The notes below the pieces were generated by a model that was not told the DNA's origin, searched no databases, and saw only the letters and a program-made list of their open reading frames with translations. Positions 2,343 to 31,406 of a stretch of 64,000 nt of DNA are shown piece by piece. Numbering within the stretch: position 1 is the stretch's first letter; every line of letters starts with the position of its first letter. Source of the stretch: Holophagales bacterium (lineage in GTDB: Bacteria; Acidobacteriota; Thermoanaerobaculia; Multivoradales; Multivoraceae). Location of the stretch: positions 124,001 through 188,000 of the forward strand of contig VXZQ01000005.1 of assembly GCA_009845425.1 (NCBI GenBank), read 5' to 3'. The translations under genes were made by a program, and so were the position numbers.

Positions 2343-3755
2343 CTACTTCGGCTGCAACTCCGACAACCGCAGCGTCTGATGCAGCAGGCTCCGGTTCGCC
2401 ACGCTCCGGACCTCGACGCGGATTTCGGGGTCGGCGGCGGTCCAGTCGACTTCGATGTAGCCAAAGTTCGGCTCGCGCGTGGCTTGGCCGACCCGGTGCC
2501 GGTTCGGGCCGATCCCGGCCGTGCCGCGTCCGTTGAGCGTGCCGGACGTGAAGTCCCACAGCGGATAGGGCACTTCTCCCTCGAGACGGGAGACGTCGGC
2601 CCAGGGGGTATCGCCGCTCAGCAGCAGGACGCCGGTCGCGCCCGTGTCCCGCATCAGGTCGATCAGCCGCTGGCGCTCGTTCGGCATGTTCGCCCAGCTC
2701 TCCCAGCCCGTGAACTCCATGACGAAGGGGATGCTGGTGACGATCAGGCGCAGGTCCGCCGGCTGACGAAGCTGTTCTTCGAGCCAGCGCCACTGTTCCT
2801 CGCTCAGCATCCGGGCGCGCTCGTGATCGTTCGGCAGGTAGGGGCCCATGCCCAGTCGTTCCCGCCTCCGCGCTTCGTCGGGTGATGCCTGCCAGAGTGG
2901 CCCGCGCCCGTACCGGGTATCCAGCAGGACGACCTGGAGACGCCGGCCGGGCGGCCCGAAACGTTGTGCAGTGTAGACGCCTTGCTGTTGCCGTCGCGGC
3001 GACCCGGACGGTTCGTTCCAGAAGTCCAGGAACATCTGCTGCGACTCGGCCCGTTTGTCGAAGTCGGCGCCGCCGTCCTCGCGGCCGAAGTCCAGGTCGT
3101 TCCAGGTAGCCATGAAGCGGCTCCGCCTGCGCAGTTCGGCAAACCCCGGCTGCAACGTCAGCTTGTCGTACTCCACGCGGAGGTCCCGCATGTCTTCCGT
3201 GCCGGCAAGGACGTTGTTTCCGAGCATCAACATGAGCTGGGGACGCAGCGCGAGGACGGTGTCCCAGATCGGCTGCGCGCGATCCTGGTCGGCGCCCGAA
3301 CCGAAGGCGATACGGCTCACGACCTCCCGGGTCAATGTGTCCGCGGCCCGGCGACGCCGGTGGAGGGACCAGACGTACGCGGTCAGCGCGTCGACATCGC
3401 CTTCGTCGAGCTCCATGCCGCCCAGGGGCCACATCTCGTACTTACCGCGGAAGCGGCGGCCGGCGCCGTGGCGGAAGCCGGTTTCGATCGCGGCGCGGAC
3501 GGCGGCAAGCGATCCGTCGCCGTGAAGCCACTCCTCGTCGGTCAGGTCGGGCCCCCGGCGGTTCCCCTGGCCTTCCCAGTGGTGACACACCGGGCAGGTG
3601 CCGCCGCGGTAGATCACTGCGCCCCGTTCGACCGCCGCCGGGTCGGCGGCGGCTCCAGCGGCGGGTGCCGCCATCGGAGCGAGGACGACGGCGACGACGC
3701 CCGGAAGCAGAGCCCGCCGCCAGTGGCGGCGCAAGCTGAACCGGGCGGACGCCAT
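2343..3755 (-). CDS. Exported cytochrome c fused to a PhoD-like domain with its metal ligands replaced
   Basis: 470 residues: signal peptide 1-37, a class I cytochrome c domain about 40-133 with heme motif CPVCH at 54-58 and candidate axial Met at 108 or 114, then a PhoD-like metallophosphatase fold about 148-470. The fold is recognisable from IAFGSG, PIWDTVL, LLDTRYGR, GWESWANMPNERQRL and VLLLSGD. However the residues that bind metal in PhoD-like enzymes are changed: GSC is GSG (154), LGDNIY is LGNNVL (180, 183), WDDHD is WNDLD (219, 221) and GDRH is GDTP (383-384). The protein is therefore probably not a phosphatase. The ATG at 3755 gives a clean signal peptide; a TTG at 3800 would add 15 residues. 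Convergent with the preceding gene. The role is unknown, perhaps electron transfer or ligand sensing in the periplasm. Confidence 0.78.
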   Translation of the reverse strand: MASARFSLRRHWRRALLPGVVAVVLAPMAAPAAGAAADPAAVERGAVIYRGGTCPVCHHWEGQGNRRGPDLTDEEWLHGDGSLAAVRAAIETGFRHGAGRRFRGKYEMWPLGGMELDEGDVDALTAYVWSLHRRRRAADTLTREVVSRIAFGSGADQDRAQPIWDTVLALRPQLMLMLGNNVLAGTEDMRDLRVEYDKLTLQPGFAELRRRSRFMATWNDLDFGREDGGADFDKRAESQQMFLDFWNEPSGSPRRQQQGVYTAQRFGPPGRRLQVVLLDTRYGRGPLWQASPDEARRRERLGMGPYLPNDHERARMLSEEQWRWLEEQLRQPADLRLIVTSIPFVMEFTGWESWANMPNERQRLIDLMRDTGATGVLLLSGDTPWADVSRLEGEVPYPLWDFTSGTLNGRGTAGIGPNRHRVGQATREPNFGYIEVDWTAADPEIRVEVRSVANRSLLHQTLRLSELQPK

Positions 3756-3853
3756 GCGCGGAATGTACCGCACGGCCTTCGCGGCGATCTTCCCGAACAA
3801 CTACCGGCCGGTGCAGCCGCTGGGCGAGCGCGTTCTCGTGCGGGGATGAGATC

Positions 3854-5196: not shown

Positions 5197-8115
5197 ATGC
5201 TCGCTCGAAGTCTGTCCCTGGGATTCGTGTTCAGCCTCGCCGTTGCGGCCGGCGCCCAGGAGTTGATGCCCGATCACGACGGGTCGCGCCGGGAGCGGCT
5301 CAACTACGCCGGGGGGCGGTTCCGCACGCCCGACGGATTCGCGGTGGAACCGGCGGCGACCGCCGGCCTCTTCGGTTCGGTCGTCAACATGACCTTCGAC
5401 GCCGCGGGCAGACCGTTACTGGCGCTGGAGGGCGAAGGCCTGGCGCTACTGGAGGACGCCGACGGTGACGGCGTGTACGACCGGCGCATCGACTTCGCTC
5501 CCCAGGTCGATACGGCCCACGGCCTGTACGTCATGGGACCGGGCGACGTGCTCGTCCACGCGAACGGCCGCGGCCGGCTGGCTGAAGCGGCGGGAGTCGA
5601 GGGCAGGCCCGGCCGCAACGACTCGGTCGACGACACCGGGCTCTACCGGTTGCGGGACACGGACGGCGACGACCGCGTCGATGCCGTCGAGCAGATCGCT
5701 CCCGCGAACGGCCGGATCCAGGAGCACGGACCGCACACGATCGCGAGGGGTCCCGACGGCGCCCTCTACCTCCTCTACGGCAACTACTCGTCGCCCGAAG
5801 TGGGGCTCGCGCCGACGTCGCCGCTGCGCGAGCTGCAGGAGGATCAACTCCTGCCGCCAATTCTCGACCCGCGAGGCCATGCGAACAGCCTGCGCGCGCC
5901 GGGCGGCACGATCTACCGCCTGGATCTGGATACCCACGTCTGGGAGCGGCTCTCGGGAGGCCTGCGCAATCCCTTCGATCTGGCGATCGGTGCGGCGGGG
6001 GAGATCTTCGCCTACGAGGCGGACATGGAGTGGGACCGCGGGTTGCCCTGGTTCCGGCCCACCCGGGTCGTCCACCTGATACCGGCGGGCGACTACGGTT
6101 GGCGCACCGGATCCGGCAAGATCGCGTTCCACGAAATCGACACGCTGCCCGGCGTCGTCGACCTCGGCCGCGGTTCGCCGGTGGGCGTCACCTTCTACTA
6201 CCACCACGCGTACCCTGCGAGGTTCTCGGGCGCATACTTCATGGGCGACTGGTCGAGGGGCCGCATCCGCGTCCTGTTCCCCGAGCGGGCCGGCGCCACC
6301 TGGACCGGAGAGGCGCACGACTTCGTCCTCGGCGAACCGCTGAACGTGACGGACCTCGACGTCGGACCGGACGGGCTCCTGTACTTCGCGACCGGCGGCC
6401 GCGGCACCTCGGGAGGCCTCTACCGGGTGACCTACGAGCGAGCGGGGGAGGCTGTTGCGGCTACGGGCGCGGAAGCCGCCGTGCGTCAACCGATGCCCCG
6501 CTCCGGTTGGGGGAGAGAGGCGATCCGTCGCGCTCGCGGCGAGGCGGGTGCGAACTGGGAGGCGGAACTGTGGGCGGTCGTTCGCGACGCCGGACGAGAG
6601 TCGATCGACCGAATCCGCGCGCTGGAACTGCTCCAGGTGCATGGTCCGCGACCGACTTTGGAAGAAGCGGCGGCGCTCCTCGACTCGGACGCACCACTGT
6701 TGCGGGCGGCTGCCGCCACGCTGCTCGGCGGGCACCCCTTCACCCAGGTACAGGGTTCCCTGCGCGCCGCGCTCGCCGACGGCGACCCGCTGGTCGCCCG
6801 GCGGGCAGCCGAATCCCTCGTGCGCTCAGGGCTCGATCTCCGCGCCCGCGGCATCGAGGTGGAAACCTCCGATGCCCTCTACGGTCTGCTCGACCACGGT
6901 GACCGGTTCCTCCGCTACGCGGCCCGGGAGGCGATCCAGCGCATCCCGCATGGCTACTGGGTCGACCAGGCCTTCGTGGCTTCTCCCCGGCAGCGCCCCC
7001 GCGGTTTCTTCGAGGCGGTGCTGGCGATGATCTACAGCCTGGAGCACAGGATCGAGTACAACTTCCTGATGGGCGGCCTGCTGCAGGTTGCGCGGGCCGA
7101 CCTGGAGGCGGAAGCCGAACTCGACTTCCTGCGGACGATGGAGATCGCGTTCATTCGCGATCCGGCTCCCGACGCCCCGGGGCGTGACGATGCGCGCGCC
7201 GGCCTGGGTCAGGCGATGCTCGAACGCTACCCGCACGCCGACGACCGGGTGAACCGCCAGCTCGAACGGCTGCTCGCGTACCTGCAGCCTGCCGGGGCGC
7301 TGGCGAAGATGGTCGCTCGTCTGGAAGAGGACCTGCCGGCGGAGGAGCGGATCCACGCCGCGTACTGCCTGCGCACGATGGACCAGGGCTGGACGCCGGA
7401 GTTACGCGTCCGGGTCGTGGCCTGGTTCGACGATGCCCGGGAGTTTCGGGGGGCCGCCAGCATGGAGGGGTACATCGACGCCATCTGGAACGACGTCCTG
7501 GACCGGTTCCCGGACGGGGAACGCGCGGCGGCCGAGGAGCGGCTCGAGGGTCAGCGGGCCGAGCGGGCGCGGCGCGCTGCCGCTTTGGTCACCGAGGTCG
7601 AGGGCGACCGGCAAGGCAGGAGCGACCTCGCCCAGATGAGCTTCGAGGAGCTCGCGGAGTACCTGGAGTACGACGTGATGGCCTACGAGCGCTACAACCC
7701 GGAGCAGGGCGAGCGGGTTTTCCACCGCGCGCGCTGCTCGGCCTGCCACGTGTTCGGCGACATCGGCCGCGGTGGCGGCCCGGATCTCTCGACGGTGATC
7801 AAGCGCTTCCGCCGCGGCGAGGTCCTCGAGTCGATCATGTTCCCGTCACGCGTCATCTCGGACCAGTACCAGGCGGTCGATGTCGAGCTCGAGGACGGCG
7901 CTCTGCACAGCGGGATGGTGGTCGAGGACACGGGCGGGCGGCTGACGCTGATCAACGCGAACGGCGACCGCCTCGATCTGGACAAGGCGCGGATCCGGAG
8001 CCGCGAGCCGTCCGCGCTCTCGATCATGCCGGAGGGCCTGCTCGACACGATGACCCTGAGTGATCTGGCCAGCCTGATCCGCTTCCTCGACGAGGGGGCG
8101 GACGAGGCGCCCTAA
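5197..8115 (+). CDS. Large exported propeller-type dehydrogenase with HEAT-like repeats and C-terminal cytochrome c
   Basis: 972 residues, exported by a signal peptide (MLARSLSLGFVFSLAVAAGA). Residues about 30-430 form a soluble sugar-dehydrogenase-like beta-propeller (FRTPDGFAVEP, HGPHTIARGPDGALYLL, GGLRNPFDLAIG, DLDVGPDGLLYFATGG). About 500-800 is helical with HEAT-like spacing. The last 120 residues carry CSACH near 847-851 and the heme-binding domain seen in Planctomycetes and Acidobacteria (FGDIGRGGGPDLS, SRVISDQYQAVDVEL). This architecture is usually called membrane-bound dehydrogenase domain protein; the substrate is probably a sugar or sugar acid but is not proven. A GTG at 5113 would add 28 residues before the signal and is rejected. 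Its stop overlaps the stop of the convergent sulfatase gene. Confidence 0.87.
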   Translation: MLARSLSLGFVFSLAVAAGAQELMPDHDGSRRERLNYAGGRFRTPDGFAVEPAATAGLFGSVVNMTFDAAGRPLLALEGEGLALLEDADGDGVYDRRIDFAPQVDTAHGLYVMGPGDVLVHANGRGRLAEAAGVEGRPGRNDSVDDTGLYRLRDTDGDDRVDAVEQIAPANGRIQEHGPHTIARGPDGALYLLYGNYSSPEVGLAPTSPLRELQEDQLLPPILDPRGHANSLRAPGGTIYRLDLDTHVWERLSGGLRNPFDLAIGAAGEIFAYEADMEWDRGLPWFRPTRVVHLIPAGDYGWRTGSGKIAFHEIDTLPGVVDLGRGSPVGVTFYYHHAYPARFSGAYFMGDWSRGRIRVLFPERAGATWTGEAHDFVLGEPLNVTDLDVGPDGLLYFATGGRGTSGGLYRVTYERAGEAVAATGAEAAVRQPMPRSGWGREAIRRARGEAGANWEAELWAVVRDAGRESIDRIRALELLQVHGPRPTLEEAAALLDSDAPLLRAAAATLLGGHPFTQVQGSLRAALADGDPLVARRAAESLVRSGLDLRARGIEVETSDALYGLLDHGDRFLRYAAREAIQRIPHGYWVDQAFVASPRQRPRGFFEAVLAMIYSLEHRIEYNFLMGGLLQVARADLEAEAELDFLRTMEIAFIRDPAPDAPGRDDARAGLGQAMLERYPHADDRVNRQLERLLAYLQPAGALAKMVARLEEDLPAEERIHAAYCLRTMDQGWTPELRVRVVAWFDDAREFRGAASMEGYIDAIWNDVLDRFPDGERAAAEERLEGQRAERARRAAALVTEVEGDRQGRSDLAQMSFEELAEYLEYDVMAYERYNPEQGERVFHRARCSACHVFGDIGRGGGPDLSTVIKRFRRGEVLESIMFPSRVISDQYQAVDVELEDGALHSGMVVEDTGGRLTLINANGDRLDLDKARIRSREPSALSIMPEGLLDTMTLSDLASLIRFLDEGADEAP

Positions 8116-13169: not shown

Positions 13170-13883
13170 ATGGCGGAGTCGACGGGCCGTTCACCCTGGT
13201 TCTACGCTCTTGTGGGCTGTCTGGGCTGCCTCGGTATCGTGATTCTGGTGGTGGGCGGCCTGGCTTTCTTCGGCGTTCGAACGGCCCAGCAGGTGACCGC
13301 CGACAACGAGGATCCCGAGCGGCGCAGGCACCGGGCACTGGAGGTGCTGGGAGCGGAGCGGGAGCCTGGTGGGTACCACGCCGCGGCGGTCGTTTCGATC
13401 CCGCTGTTCCTGGAGATGGCCGTGTTTTCGGACCGGGCGCCGGAAGACGGCTCCTGGGGAGGAGAGTTCCGTGAGGAGGGGTTCTTCTACCTTCGCGTGA
13501 GAGGAGGGGGCGACGACCTGCGGGCCTTCTTCGACGGCGAGACGAGTGAGTCGGTGACATTCCGCGAGATGGGCCTGGAGCTGGACATCGAGGAGAACCT
13601 GGGACGCGGCGACCTGGACCGCGGGGACTTCACCGGGCGCTGGGCCACCTTCCGTGGCCGTACCCTGTACGAGGCCGGGGAGGAAGTCGGAGAACTCGTG
13701 ACCTTCATCGAGTTCGAGTGCCCCGACGACGAGTGGATGCGTATGGGCGTCTGGTTCGGACCTGCCGCGGAGCCGGATGATCAAGACCGAGCTACGGAAC
13801 CGGGATCAGACGGTCTGGCGGCGGACGGCGAAGCGATCGAGGCGTTCCTCGAACCGATCTACCCGTGTGGTCGTTCCGTCTGA
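13170..13883 (+). CDS. Membrane-anchored protein of unknown function
   Basis: 237 residues not matched to any family I recognise. One strongly hydrophobic segment (about residues 11-36, with GCLGCLG) would anchor it in the inner membrane, leaving an acidic beta-rich domain of about 180 residues, probably outside. Tryptophan, aspartate and glutamate are frequent and a terminal PCGRSV leaves a lone cysteine near the end. The next gene begins inside its last codons in another frame, so the two are probably made together, and the partner is an exported spondin-type protein. Confidence 0.65.
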   Translation: MAESTGRSPWFYALVGCLGCLGIVILVVGGLAFFGVRTAQQVTADNEDPERRRHRALEVLGAEREPGGYHAAAVVSIPLFLEMAVFSDRAPEDGSWGGEFREEGFFYLRVRGGGDDLRAFFDGETSESVTFREMGLELDIEENLGRGDLDRGDFTGRWATFRGRTLYEAGEEVGELVTFIEFECPDDEWMRMGVWFGPAAEPDDQDRATEPGSDGLAADGEAIEAFLEPIYPCGRSV

Positions 13884-15169
13884 AGCTCCTACTGGCGGCT
13901 GCCGCCGTCTGGTCCTTCTGGGTCGCGCCGACTCTGGCGCAGTCCCCGCGAGACGAGTCGGCCAGCTACCGGCTGACGTTCCGGGGCACTTGGACTCGTA
14001 GCGCGACACCCGGCGGCGTGCCGGGCAGCGCGCATTTCTCGCCTCTGATCGGCGCTGTTCACAACGACCAGGTGGGTTTCTGGGAGCCGGGCGGCCGGGC
14101 CAGCCGGCAGATAGAGCGGGTGGCCGAGCTGGGGATCCAGCGGGACCTCAGAGCCCTGATGAACCGGAGCCCGTACGTCCTTGAAGTCTTCGAGAAGGAG
14201 CCTCCGAGAGGTGGCACAGCCTCGGCATCGATCGAGTTCGAGGCCGACAGGGACCATTCCCTTGTCACCCTGGTGACCATGATCGCTCCCAGTCCGGACT
14301 GGTTCGTCGGCGTTTCCGCACGGTCACTGCTCGACGACAGCGGAAGCTGGGTCGATGACCTGGAGGTCGACCTCTTCCCCTACGACGCCGGCACCGAGGA
14401 GGGAACCGAGTTCTCGCTCGAGAATCCGGCGACCGTCCCACAGGGGACGATCACCAGCATCCGCGGCATGGGCAAGTTCACGGGCAGGCCGATGGCGCGC
14501 TTGACCTTCGAGCGGCTGGATCCGAACGTGCCCGAACCGCGGTTCACCGGCGATGTCGCAGCGGAGCCGGTGGGGGACTCGGGCGTCATCGTGTTCTGGC
14601 GGGGAAGCTGGGCCGGCGCGGAGATGGGGCTGCTCAGCGTCGAGGCGCGCAGCCAGACGGCGGGCTGGACACGGGTGACGACGGCGAACGCGACCGAAGG
14701 CCGCGTCCGCATCGACGGACTTCGTTCGGAGACGCCGTACACCTTCCGCCTGCGCGCGGACGGTCGCCAGGGCGTCCAGCACTCGGATGAGGCAAGTGCG
14801 ACGACCGGCGGCTACAGCGGCCCTTGTCGTGCCGGCGACGGCTTCCTCTGCCTGATGCAGCGCCGCTTCGAGGTCCAGGTGCACTGGACCGATCCGGACG
14901 TAGCCGGCAACTTCGGAAGCGGCGGCGCCATCCCGGTGGCGACGTCCGACGAGTCGGGCTTGTTCTGGTTCTTCAACCCGGCGAACCTGGAACTTGTCGT
15001 CAAGGTGCTCGACGGCCGCGTGCTGAACGGCCACTACTGGGTGTTCTACGGCGCCCTGTCCGACGTGGAGTACTGGGTCACGGTAAGGGACACGGTCGGC
15101 GGTCTGAATCGTACGTACCACAATCCGCCCAAGCAGGTGAGCGGGAAGCGGGACCTCGAAGCGTTCTGA
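13865..15169 (+). CDS. Exported spondin-domain protein with fibronectin III-like and shared C-terminal domain
   Basis: 434 residues with a signal peptide (cleavage near residue 26). Residues about 30-220 follow the Spond_N pattern (FSPLIGAVHN, SPDWFVGVSARSLLDD, DLFPYDAGTEEGTEF, PQGTITSI). About 225-318 is fibronectin III-like (VIVFWRGSWAGA, IDGLRSETPYTFRLRA). Residues 321-434 are a domain that recurs at the end of the M14 peptidase at 21678-23774 (ESGLFWFFNP, VKVLDG, VRDTVGG, ending at AF). The start is a GTG overlapping the previous gene by 19 bases, so translation is likely coupled. Probable surface or matrix protein; the ligand is unknown. Confidence 0.78.
   Translation: MWSFRLKLLLAAAAVWSFWVAPTLAQSPRDESASYRLTFRGTWTRSATPGGVPGSAHFSPLIGAVHNDQVGFWEPGGRASRQIERVAELGIQRDLRALMNRSPYVLEVFEKEPPRGGTASASIEFEADRDHSLVTLVTMIAPSPDWFVGVSARSLLDDSGSWVDDLEVDLFPYDAGTEEGTEFSLENPATVPQGTITSIRGMGKFTGRPMARLTFERLDPNVPEPRFTGDVAAEPVGDSGVIVFWRGSWAGAEMGLLSVEARSQTAGWTRVTTANATEGRVRIDGLRSETPYTFRLRADGRQGVQHSDEASATTGGYSGPCRAGDGFLCLMQRRFEVQVHWTDPDVAGNFGSGGAIPVATSDESGLFWFFNPANLELVVKVLDGRVLNGHYWVFYGALSDVEYWVTVRDTVGGLNRTYHNPPKQVSGKRDLEAF
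14825..15166 (+). other. C-terminal domain shared with the M14 peptidase, copy 1
   Basis: Residues 321-434 of the spondin protein. Conserved landmarks are a CxxxxxxxCL pair, a tryptophan after an alternating strand, ESGLFWFF, VKVLDG, LNxHxWV, VxDTVxG, YxN and a final AF. One cysteine found in copy 2 after VKVLDG is replaced by Arg here. Confidence 0.7.
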
Positions 15170-29450: not shown

Positions 29451-31406
29451 CTACCCGGTCGGTAGGGCGTACGCGACGAGGGAGTGCTCCTGGCCGCGGT
29501 TGCCGACGGGAACGACGACGAACTGGCGGCCAGAGATGACGTAGGTCATCGGACCGCCGCCCGGCGTGTCGGGCAGCTCGGTTCGCCAGACCTCTTCGCC
29601 GGTCGCCTTGTCGAAGGCGTAGAGGAACCCTGTCGACGGGCCGCGGGACGTGAAGCCGGCGGCCTCCTCCTGGTACGTGCCCGGCGCCTGCTCGCTGGTG
29701 ACGACGAACACGAGCGTGGCGGTCGCCATCGGCCAGCCCGGCGTGAGACCGGCGAGCGGCCAGGCGCCGAGTCGTCCCAGGTTGAGATCGGCAAGCGCGG
29801 GATGATCGCGGGGGCCGTCGCCGACCGGCGTTTGCCACAGGATCTCGCCACGGTTCAGGTCGATCGCGGTGAGCCGGCTCCAGGGCGGCTTGACGAGCGG
29901 CAGACCCTCCGGCCCGGCGGGAAACGTGAACGCCGGCAGGTAGTCGCGGTCGGAAGGCTGGCGCTCGGTCGGTGGGATCAGCGCCATCGTGCCGAGCCGG
30001 GTTTGCGACGGCACGAACAGGACACCGCTGTTCGGATCGACGGCGGCGCCGCCCCAGTTCGCGCCGCCGGCCTGGCCGGGGAGTTGCGCCATCACCCTCC
30101 GGTTCTCGCCGGACAGGGTCGGCGGCGTGAACATCGGACCTCCCAGGAGCGTCTTCCGGTAGAGCTCGACCGCCTTCGCCTTGAGCTCCGGCGTGAAGTC
30201 GATCAGATCGCTTTCGCGCACGCCCTGGCGGTCGAACGGCGGCGGTTTCGTGGGGAAGGGCTGCGTGCTCGCGGTCCATTCCCCCGGGACCAGGCTCTCG
30301 GGCACCTTGCGCTCCTCGATCGGCCACACGGGCTCGCCGGTCTTGCGGTCGAAGACGTAGGTGAACGCCTGCTTGCTGACCTGAGCCACGGCCTCGATCC
30401 GCTTTCCGTCGACCTCGATGTCGAGCAGGATCGGCGCGCACGGGAAGTCGTAGTCCCAGAGGCCGTGCCGCACGGCCTGGAAGTGCCACTTCTTCTCGCC
30501 GGTCGCGGTGTCGATGGCGACCAGGCTCTCTGCGTAGAGGTTGTCGCCGTGGCGGTGGCCGCCGTAGTAGTCGCTGGTCGGGGTGCCGGTGCCGAAGTAC
30601 ACCCAGCCCGTCTCGTCGTCGCAGCTCATCCAGGACCATACGTTGGTGTTGCCCGAGTAGCGCCAGGATTCGTCGTGCCACGTCTCGGCGCCGGGCTCGT
30701 CGCCCTGGGGCACGGTGTGGAAGATCCACTTCTTCCGGCCGGTGCGGATGTCGTAGCCGCGAATGTGGCCGGCCGGCATCTCCTGGGTCAGGGCAAAGTC
30801 CATGATCGTCATGCCCATGAGGACGGTGTCGCCGCAGACGATGCCGGGCGAGTTCGCGCCGGTCTCCCGCATCTGGTCCGGCCGGCCGATGTCGCCGCGC
30901 ATGTCGACCATCCCGGCTTCGCCGAACTCGAGGTCGGGCTCGCCCGTCTTCGCGTCCAGGGACACGAGCTGGTGGGTGCCGGTGACCAGGACGATCCGCT
31001 GCATGCCCCGGTGCTCCCAGTACTCGATGCCGCGCTGGGTGAAGCCGCCGTGGGTCGGGATACCGCGCTCGTACGCCTTCGGATCGTAGGTCCAGAGCTC
31101 TTTGCCGGTCGCGGGGTCGACGGCGCTCACGAGGTTCATGGCCGACACGGCGTACAGGGTGTCGTTCGCCATCAGCGGCGTGCCCTTGAGGTCACCGGCC
31201 AGGGTCTGTGCTTCGACACGGCTGTCGGGCGTGACCCAGCGCCAGGCGACCTCGAGTTCGGACACGTTCGAGGCGTCGATCTGCACCGCCGGCGAGTACT
31301 TGGTGCTGGCGCGGTCGGCGGCGTAGTGGCGCCACTCGATCGTCTCCTGCGCGGCCAGGGCGGTGGAGCAGGTGAGCGAGGCGACGAGAAAGAAACGAGC
31401 GTGCAT
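29451..31406 (-). CDS. Exported PQQ-dependent quinoprotein dehydrogenase (glucose dehydrogenase type)
   Basis: 651 residues with a signal peptide ending near ALAAQ. The body is an eight-bladed propeller with repeated tryptophan-docking strands (ATGKELWTYDPK, TGRKKWIFHTVPQGDEPG, TGEKKWHFQAVRHGLWDYD, TGEPVWPIEERKVP, TGEEVWRTELPDTPGGGP). GDIGRPDQMRETGANSPGIV and PTSDYYGGHRHGDNLYAESL are typical of the soluble membrane-glucose-dehydrogenase-like group. It oxidises an alcohol or sugar in the periplasm and hands electrons to the respiratory chain. No PQQ synthesis genes are in the window and no attached cytochrome domain is present, so a separate acceptor is needed. Confidence 0.9.
   Translation of the reverse strand: MHARFFLVASLTCSTALAAQETIEWRHYAADRASTKYSPAVQIDASNVSELEVAWRWVTPDSRVEAQTLAGDLKGTPLMANDTLYAVSAMNLVSAVDPATGKELWTYDPKAYERGIPTHGGFTQRGIEYWEHRGMQRIVLVTGTHQLVSLDAKTGEPDLEFGEAGMVDMRGDIGRPDQMRETGANSPGIVCGDTVLMGMTIMDFALTQEMPAGHIRGYDIRTGRKKWIFHTVPQGDEPGAETWHDESWRYSGNTNVWSWMSCDDETGWVYFGTGTPTSDYYGGHRHGDNLYAESLVAIDTATGEKKWHFQAVRHGLWDYDFPCAPILLDIEVDGKRIEAVAQVSKQAFTYVFDRKTGEPVWPIEERKVPESLVPGEWTASTQPFPTKPPPFDRQGVRESDLIDFTPELKAKAVELYRKTLLGGPMFTPPTLSGENRRVMAQLPGQAGGANWGGAAVDPNSGVLFVPSQTRLGTMALIPPTERQPSDRDYLPAFTFPAGPEGLPLVKPPWSRLTAIDLNRGEILWQTPVGDGPRDHPALADLNLGRLGAWPLAGLTPGWPMATATLVFVVTSEQAPGTYQEEAAGFTSRGPSTGFLYAFDKATGEEVWRTELPDTPGGGPMTYVISGRQFVVVPVGNRGQEHSLVAYALPTG

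Follow-up and report, generated by a model that had tools for sequence, protein, structure and literature searches.

A cytochrome c fused to a PhoD-like domain that lacks the iron site, kept across a genus of Acidobacteriota

Introduction

PhoD of B. subtilis binds one Fe3+ and two Ca2+, and the phosphate in its active site is coordinated by all three metals (PMC4223295). What, then, is a PhoD-like fold kept for when the ligands of these metals have been replaced and the domain is joined to a cytochrome c? The question is raised by a gene of what is probably Candidatus Multivorans, a genus placed in Thermoanaerobaculia, Acidobacteriota, whose hosts, on a reading of isolate names, would be sponges or corals. 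An earlier note on this DNA had proposed that the gene is not decaying and encodes a pseudoenzyme that lost every metal ligand and was retained for binding or sensing. Here we examine this proposal through the protein's architecture, the alignment of its former metal site, its relatives and the selection acting on it.

Results

Gene and domain architecture

The gene lies on the minus strand of the window (the whole stretch of 64,000 nucleotides that was analysed) and forms an open frame from an ATG at 3755 to a stop codon at 2343-2345. The frame is open further upstream, to 3800, in a stretch that overlaps the remnant of another gene; the start region is common to 19 complete orthologs, and the conserved start is the ATG at 3755. 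The main parts are as follows.

2343-3755, minus strand: whole gene, 470 residues, a predicted secreted fusion of cytochrome c and a PhoD-like pseudoenzyme (open frame, Pfam, 19 complete orthologs)
3648-3755, minus strand: putative signal peptide, residues 1-36, with an Arg-rich start, a hydrophobic core and an AxA-type end; weakly constrained (sequence, dN/dS)
3351-3647, minus strand: class I cytochrome c domain, residues 37-135 (PF00034, E 1.2e-7; no variation of CPVCH or Met108 among 19 orthologs)
2352-3320, minus strand: PhoD-like domain without the Fe3+ site, residues 146-468 (PF09423, AlphaFold2 model, match to 2YEQ)

Pfam places Cytochrom_C at residues 42-131, above the curated cut-off, and PhoD at 234-411 (E 1.1e-7; 31.8 bits for PF09423 against a cut-off of 27). 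The heme attachment motif CPVCH occupies residues 54-58, Met108 is probably the sixth (distal) heme ligand, and the N terminus looks like a Sec-type export signal. With a CxxCH motif, a putative distal Met, a signal-like N terminus and a PF00034 match above cut-off, the sequence has the marks of a class I c-type cytochrome, and among PDB entries the domain resembles CcoP. An AlphaFold2 model built from an alignment of the window and locus proteins has pLDDT mostly above 90 in the PhoD-like part and low confidence in the cytochrome part. Modelling, one of the checks that the earlier note had proposed, thus predicts the PhoD fold with high confidence, and among solved structures B. subtilis PhoD comes closest (2YEQ, E 6.3e-14), as it does by sequence. 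By fold and descent the domain belongs to the PhoD-like phosphatases, as indicated by PF09423, 2YEQ and its placement among PhoD proteins in the tree. In the fusion protein Pfam and NCBIfam recognized nothing but PhoD and cytochrome c, and the PhoD-like domain shows no motif for an organic redox cofactor. No RNA element or promoter above chance was found near the gene. The architecture that had been read from the letters, a cytochrome c joined to a PhoD-like domain in an intact frame with a whole heme motif, is therefore borne out.

The former metal site

In B. subtilis PhoD, activity is abolished by C180A, D265A, N271A, N272A and D436A and drastically reduced by D207A and D266A; the CaB site employs the Asn271/Asn272 positions, and Cys180 is the sole difference between the Fe ligand set and that of purple acid phosphatase (PMC4223295). 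From this comparison and our alignment, Tyr210 and His438 were taken as putative Fe ligands. The register was set by an HMM alignment of relatives with 2YEQ, in which chain numbering plus 56 equals the numbering of that paper. The corresponding segments of the window protein are listed below.

3294-3296, minus strand: residue 154, where Gly stands in for the Fe ligand Cys180 (15 orthologs have Gly and 4 have Ser; 46/46 single-domain relatives have Cys)
3207-3218, minus strand: residues 180-183, Asn-Asn-Val-Leu at Asp207 (Fe/CaA) and Tyr210 (Fe) (Asn180 and Leu183 in 19/19 orthologs)
3075-3101, minus strand: residues 219-227, NDLDFGRED, with Asp265 replaced by Asn219, Asp266 kept as Asp220, and Asn271 and Asn272 probably replaced by Glu226 and Asp227 (alignments, with a one-residue gap relative to 2YEQ for the last two)
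2604-2612, minus strand: residues 382-384, Asp-Thr-Pro, with Asp436 kept and His438 replaced by Pro384 (alignments)

All four Fe3+ ligands are lost in this register (C180 to G154, D207 to N180, Y210 to L183 and H438 to P384), as is the CaA ligand D265 (now N219), and D266 and D436 are retained as D220 and D382. The pairing of N271 with E226 and of N272 with D227 passes through a one-residue gap and appears to be the appropriate one, the relatives reading 'ND' where 2YEQ reads 'NN'; D227 would be tolerable at its position, where Asp is a natural alternative. The Fe3+ site of an active PhoD is absent from all 19 complete orthologs, in which Gly or Ser, Asn, Leu and Pro take its place. Among the Ca2+ ligands, Asn219 and Glu226 are changed, the acidic E226 being fixed in 19/19, Asp220 is kept, and Asp382 is variable, with Asn or His in 5/19. 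As judged from sequence, nothing remains of the Fe site, CaA is impaired and acidic residues persist around CaB, so that some metal binding by the three remaining carboxylates of the old site would be possible.

Every substitution in the earlier note (G154, N180, L183, N219, L221 and T383-P384) stands at the residue given there, and one change, Asn271 to Glu226, had been missed. Its phrase 'lost every metal ligand' is right for the four Fe3+ ligands and Asp265 and wrong as a whole because some calcium ligands remain (D220, D227 and D382). Likewise, it correctly named the Fe set and Asp265 as metal ligands, but the His221 and Arg383 positions, which it also included, are not among the ligands reported for B. 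subtilis PhoD (PMC4223295). A shifted alignment was considered and ruled out: the flanking structural motifs line up with those of 46 single-domain relatives and of 2YEQ.

Single-domain relatives and the origin of the substitutions

The closest relative of the PhoD-like domain, L066, comes from the same order and is 50% identical; L078, L067, L068 and L072 follow at 43-45%. These five proteins and the paralog in the window's own genome (contig C2, 27496-28461) possess C, D, Y, D, D and H, so the altered residues are not shared by close relatives, which at 43-50% identity are ligand-complete. The Fe set Cys/Asp/Tyr/His is complete in 44/46 single-domain proteins, whereas the fused proteins keep none of the four. 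Because B. subtilis PhoD shares the ligands of these relatives, a complete set is most simply ancestral under any rooting. The clade with the same substitutions and the same cytochrome fusion that the earlier note had suggested looking for was found, and it is monophyletic with support of 100/100; the tree does not resolve its immediate sister. Its stem measures 0.64 changes per site and its inner branches are short.

Altered ligand sets were also seen in a few single-domain PhoD relatives: L070 and L071 read GDxYY / WGDEDFG / GERHL, L057 has GDAVH and SGGRH, and L059 has GDSID and WDDND. These are perhaps other metal uses or partial pseudoenzymes.

Distribution of the fusion

The fusion with these substitutions is present in 20/21 genomes of the genus, the window's own included, and 19 copies are complete; the remaining ortholog, in G020, is split where its assembly has a run of N. 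Loci from a public collection (L035-L051) largely duplicate the same genomes and were left out of this count. The 19 complete orthologs all carry the same substitutions, Gly154 being Ser in four, a recurrence that goes beyond chance. In G018 a deletion (L075, which is G018 C16, 6343-6619) spans the fusion gene, the adjacent CmcJ-like gene and the larger part of the carbonic anhydrase gene; the flanking amidohydrolase and UPF0261 genes are still present. Since it was lost there with two neighbours, the fusion gene is dispensable in G018.

Outside the genus, the fusion was absent from 149 genomes of the class, 396 of the phylum (overlapping sets, about 500 Acidobacteriota together) and 399 Pseudomonadota. 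When about 85,000 species genomes were scanned for the pattern, a search that reaches close relatives only, the fusion again appeared in this genus only. No ligand-complete cytochrome-PhoD fusion that could be an intermediate occurs in the searched Acidobacteriota or the 399 Pseudomonadota genomes. All other matches cover the PhoD part only, from about residue 131; the exception, in G489, starts at residue 101 and runs across a stop codon. Outside the orthologs, the same cytochrome domain was not found in relatives at E <= 1e-8. As a source of the fusion, a cytochrome gene adjoining a single-domain PhoD was looked for and discarded, none lying near L066-L069 or L071-L072, and the multi-heme cytochrome gene found near L070 does not match the cytochrome domain of the fusion.

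Selection on the fused protein

Pairwise dN/dS (NG86) across the orthologs is 0.735 in the signal peptide, 0.085 in the cytochrome and 0.191 in the PhoD-like domain. This last value is far from 1 and close to the 0.137 of the PhoD paralog that these genomes carry with a complete ligand set. As descriptive figures, 7/9 former ligand positions never vary within the genus, compared with 57% across the domain as a whole, and thus give no sign of relaxation at the old site. At 52 positions conserved in the relatives, the fused clade differs at 5/8 ligand sites and 7/44 other sites (Fisher p 0.011), the ligand positions having been picked from the literature and not from the tested table. Four other conserved positions were exchanged and then fixed in 19/19 orthologs (L221, T340, P343 and N454), which would suggest a remodelled pocket.

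The low dN/dS of the PhoD-like domain and the cytochrome, in comparison with the signal peptide, argues for a selected pseudoenzyme, and because the altered sequence is intact across nearly the whole genus, the protein is to be seen as an enzyme relative that is very probably inactive but has been maintained, not as the product of a decaying gene. Catalytic residues lost, a lineage conserved under purifying selection and ligand-complete relatives are the sequence marks of a pseudoenzyme, and with orthologs in 20/21 genomes and the replacements fixed across the genus the earlier proposal on this point stands. Decay or an assembly artefact, for which the deletion in G018 and the split match in G020 might have spoken, has hardly any likelihood left, given 19 complete open frames in different genomes, the dN/dS of 0.19 and a G020 split that is due only to a run of N, which rules out a broken gene or frameshift there.

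Locus surroundings

Gene order in the genus runs sulfatase, PVC-type heme protein, UPF0261, alpha-carbonic anhydrase (divergent), fusion gene, CmcJ/NvfI-like oxidoreductase (1090-2322 in the window) and amidohydrolase. These neighbours are conserved across the genus and together indicate no single pathway. In sister species (for example L050, 5129-5818) the alpha-carbonic anhydrase gene is complete and oriented divergently from the fusion gene. In the window lineage a deletion has left only a short piece of its 3' end, about 24 residues, AFAAIFPNNYRPVQPLGERVLVRG, at about 3775-3846 on the plus strand, and no second alpha-carbonic anhydrase copy was found in the window's genome.

Several further observations concern this region. 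The PVC-type heme-binding protein (5198-8115, plus strand) is 54-90% identical between species, compared with 88-99% for the neighbouring UPF0261. In L044 (7313-8517) the match to the CmcJ/NvfI-like gene falls into two parts, possibly through a frameshift. A bacterial protein with a Spondin_N domain, which is better known from animals, is encoded at 13865-15169 on the plus strand (E 2.2e-40). A PQQ-dependent protein of the alcohol dehydrogenase type (29451-31406, minus strand; E 1.6e-181) could donate electrons to periplasmic cytochromes c.

Discussion

The PhoD-like domain very probably has no PhoD phosphatase activity: with Gly, Asn, Asn and Glu at positions 180, 207, 265 and 271, and in view of the B. 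subtilis mutants, it should be inactive. Our preferred explanation, to which we give about an even chance, is a periplasmic monoheme cytochrome c whose catalytically dead PhoD-like domain is kept as a folded module for binding or docking. The protein would be exported, heme would then be attached to CPVCH, and the heme may shuttle electrons, with the PhoD fold serving either to dock the cytochrome on a redox partner or to anchor it to a surface or a ligand. The residual acidic loop of D220, D222, E226 and D227 may still bind one Ca2+. That the dead module docks or binds is, by analogy with other inactive folds, an evenly balanced proposition, and the 'binding or sensing' role suggested earlier is a reasonable inference only.

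More tentatively, the fold could have become a dedicated redox module in which the former three-metal pocket accommodates a new ligand or partner and controls the flow of electrons; to our knowledge, no such function has been described for the PhoD or purple acid phosphatase fold. It is somewhat less probable that the pocket formed by N180, N219, D220, E226, D227, P343 and P384 acquired a new catalytic role, in which the oxidation or reduction of a bound substrate is linked to the fused heme. Fusions of a dehydrogenase with a cytochrome c domain exist, the heme itself implies redox chemistry, and the long stem followed by conservation fits such a change, as do the fixed non-ligand exchanges, of which L221 lies inside and P343 probably near the old site. 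However, the domain contains no organic redox cofactor motif, Pfam and NCBIfam showing PhoD and cytochrome c only, and we know of no PhoD-fold oxidoreductase.

Equally doubtful is a ligand sensor or binder, in which the dead site would bind phosphate, a phosphoester or Ca2+ and so modulate heme redox or partner contact. The retention of D220, D227 and mostly D382, together with the acidic E226 of every complete ortholog, is consistent with this, and PhoD itself employs the Asn271/Asn272 positions in CaB (PMC4223295). Phosphate in PhoD, however, is coordinated by all three metals (PMC4223295), and here the Fe site is absent and CaA damaged; moreover, five orthologs have Asn or His in place of D382, and the locus has no regulatory partner gene. 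A phosphohydrolase that persists with a different, relocated metal set seems very unlikely. Altered ligand sets do occur in L070/L071 and L059, but these proteins retain the Fe-site Cys, Asp and His, of which the fused clade retains nothing, no new His, Cys or Tyr cluster has arisen in the old motifs, and the alignment is in register with 2YEQ.

Environmental phoD surveys and automatic annotation call for caution here, as they would count the fusion gene as an alkaline phosphatase. We found no report of a PhoD pseudoenzyme or of a cytochrome-PhoD fusion in the open-access literature; dead metallophosphoesterase relatives are known in eukaryotes (VPS29), with none found reported within PhoD or joined to cytochrome c. 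The fusion shares the fold, structural motifs and a collinear alignment with the PhoD family (PF09423; B. subtilis PhoD, 2YEQ), and differs from B. subtilis PhoD in the replaced Fe3+ ligands and Asp265, in Asn271 changed to Glu and in its N-terminal cytochrome c domain. The short single-domain PhoD proteins of Acidobacteriota and Pseudomonadota (L066, L067, L072, the own paralog L002 and L078) are about 40-50% identical and similar in length and motifs, but have complete ligand sets and no cytochrome domain. CcoP, or cbb3 subunit III, cytochromes c have in common with the fusion CPVCH and a probable distal Met, as seen in PDB and NCBIfam matches; unlike them, the fusion has a single heme, is not a membrane subunit and reaches 39 bits against a ccoP cut-off of 180. 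VPS29, in which an inactive metallophosphatase fold acts as a rigid scaffold (PMC3101248), is a structural match to the fusion model and offers the parallel of a fold of this superfamily that lost catalysis and serves as a scaffold, although it is eukaryotic and cytosolic, belongs to a different subfamily, has no heme domain and lost its activity independently. Alongside it, the roughly 20 species carrying the fusion form a natural series for learning what purpose a phosphatase fold serves once its metals are lost.
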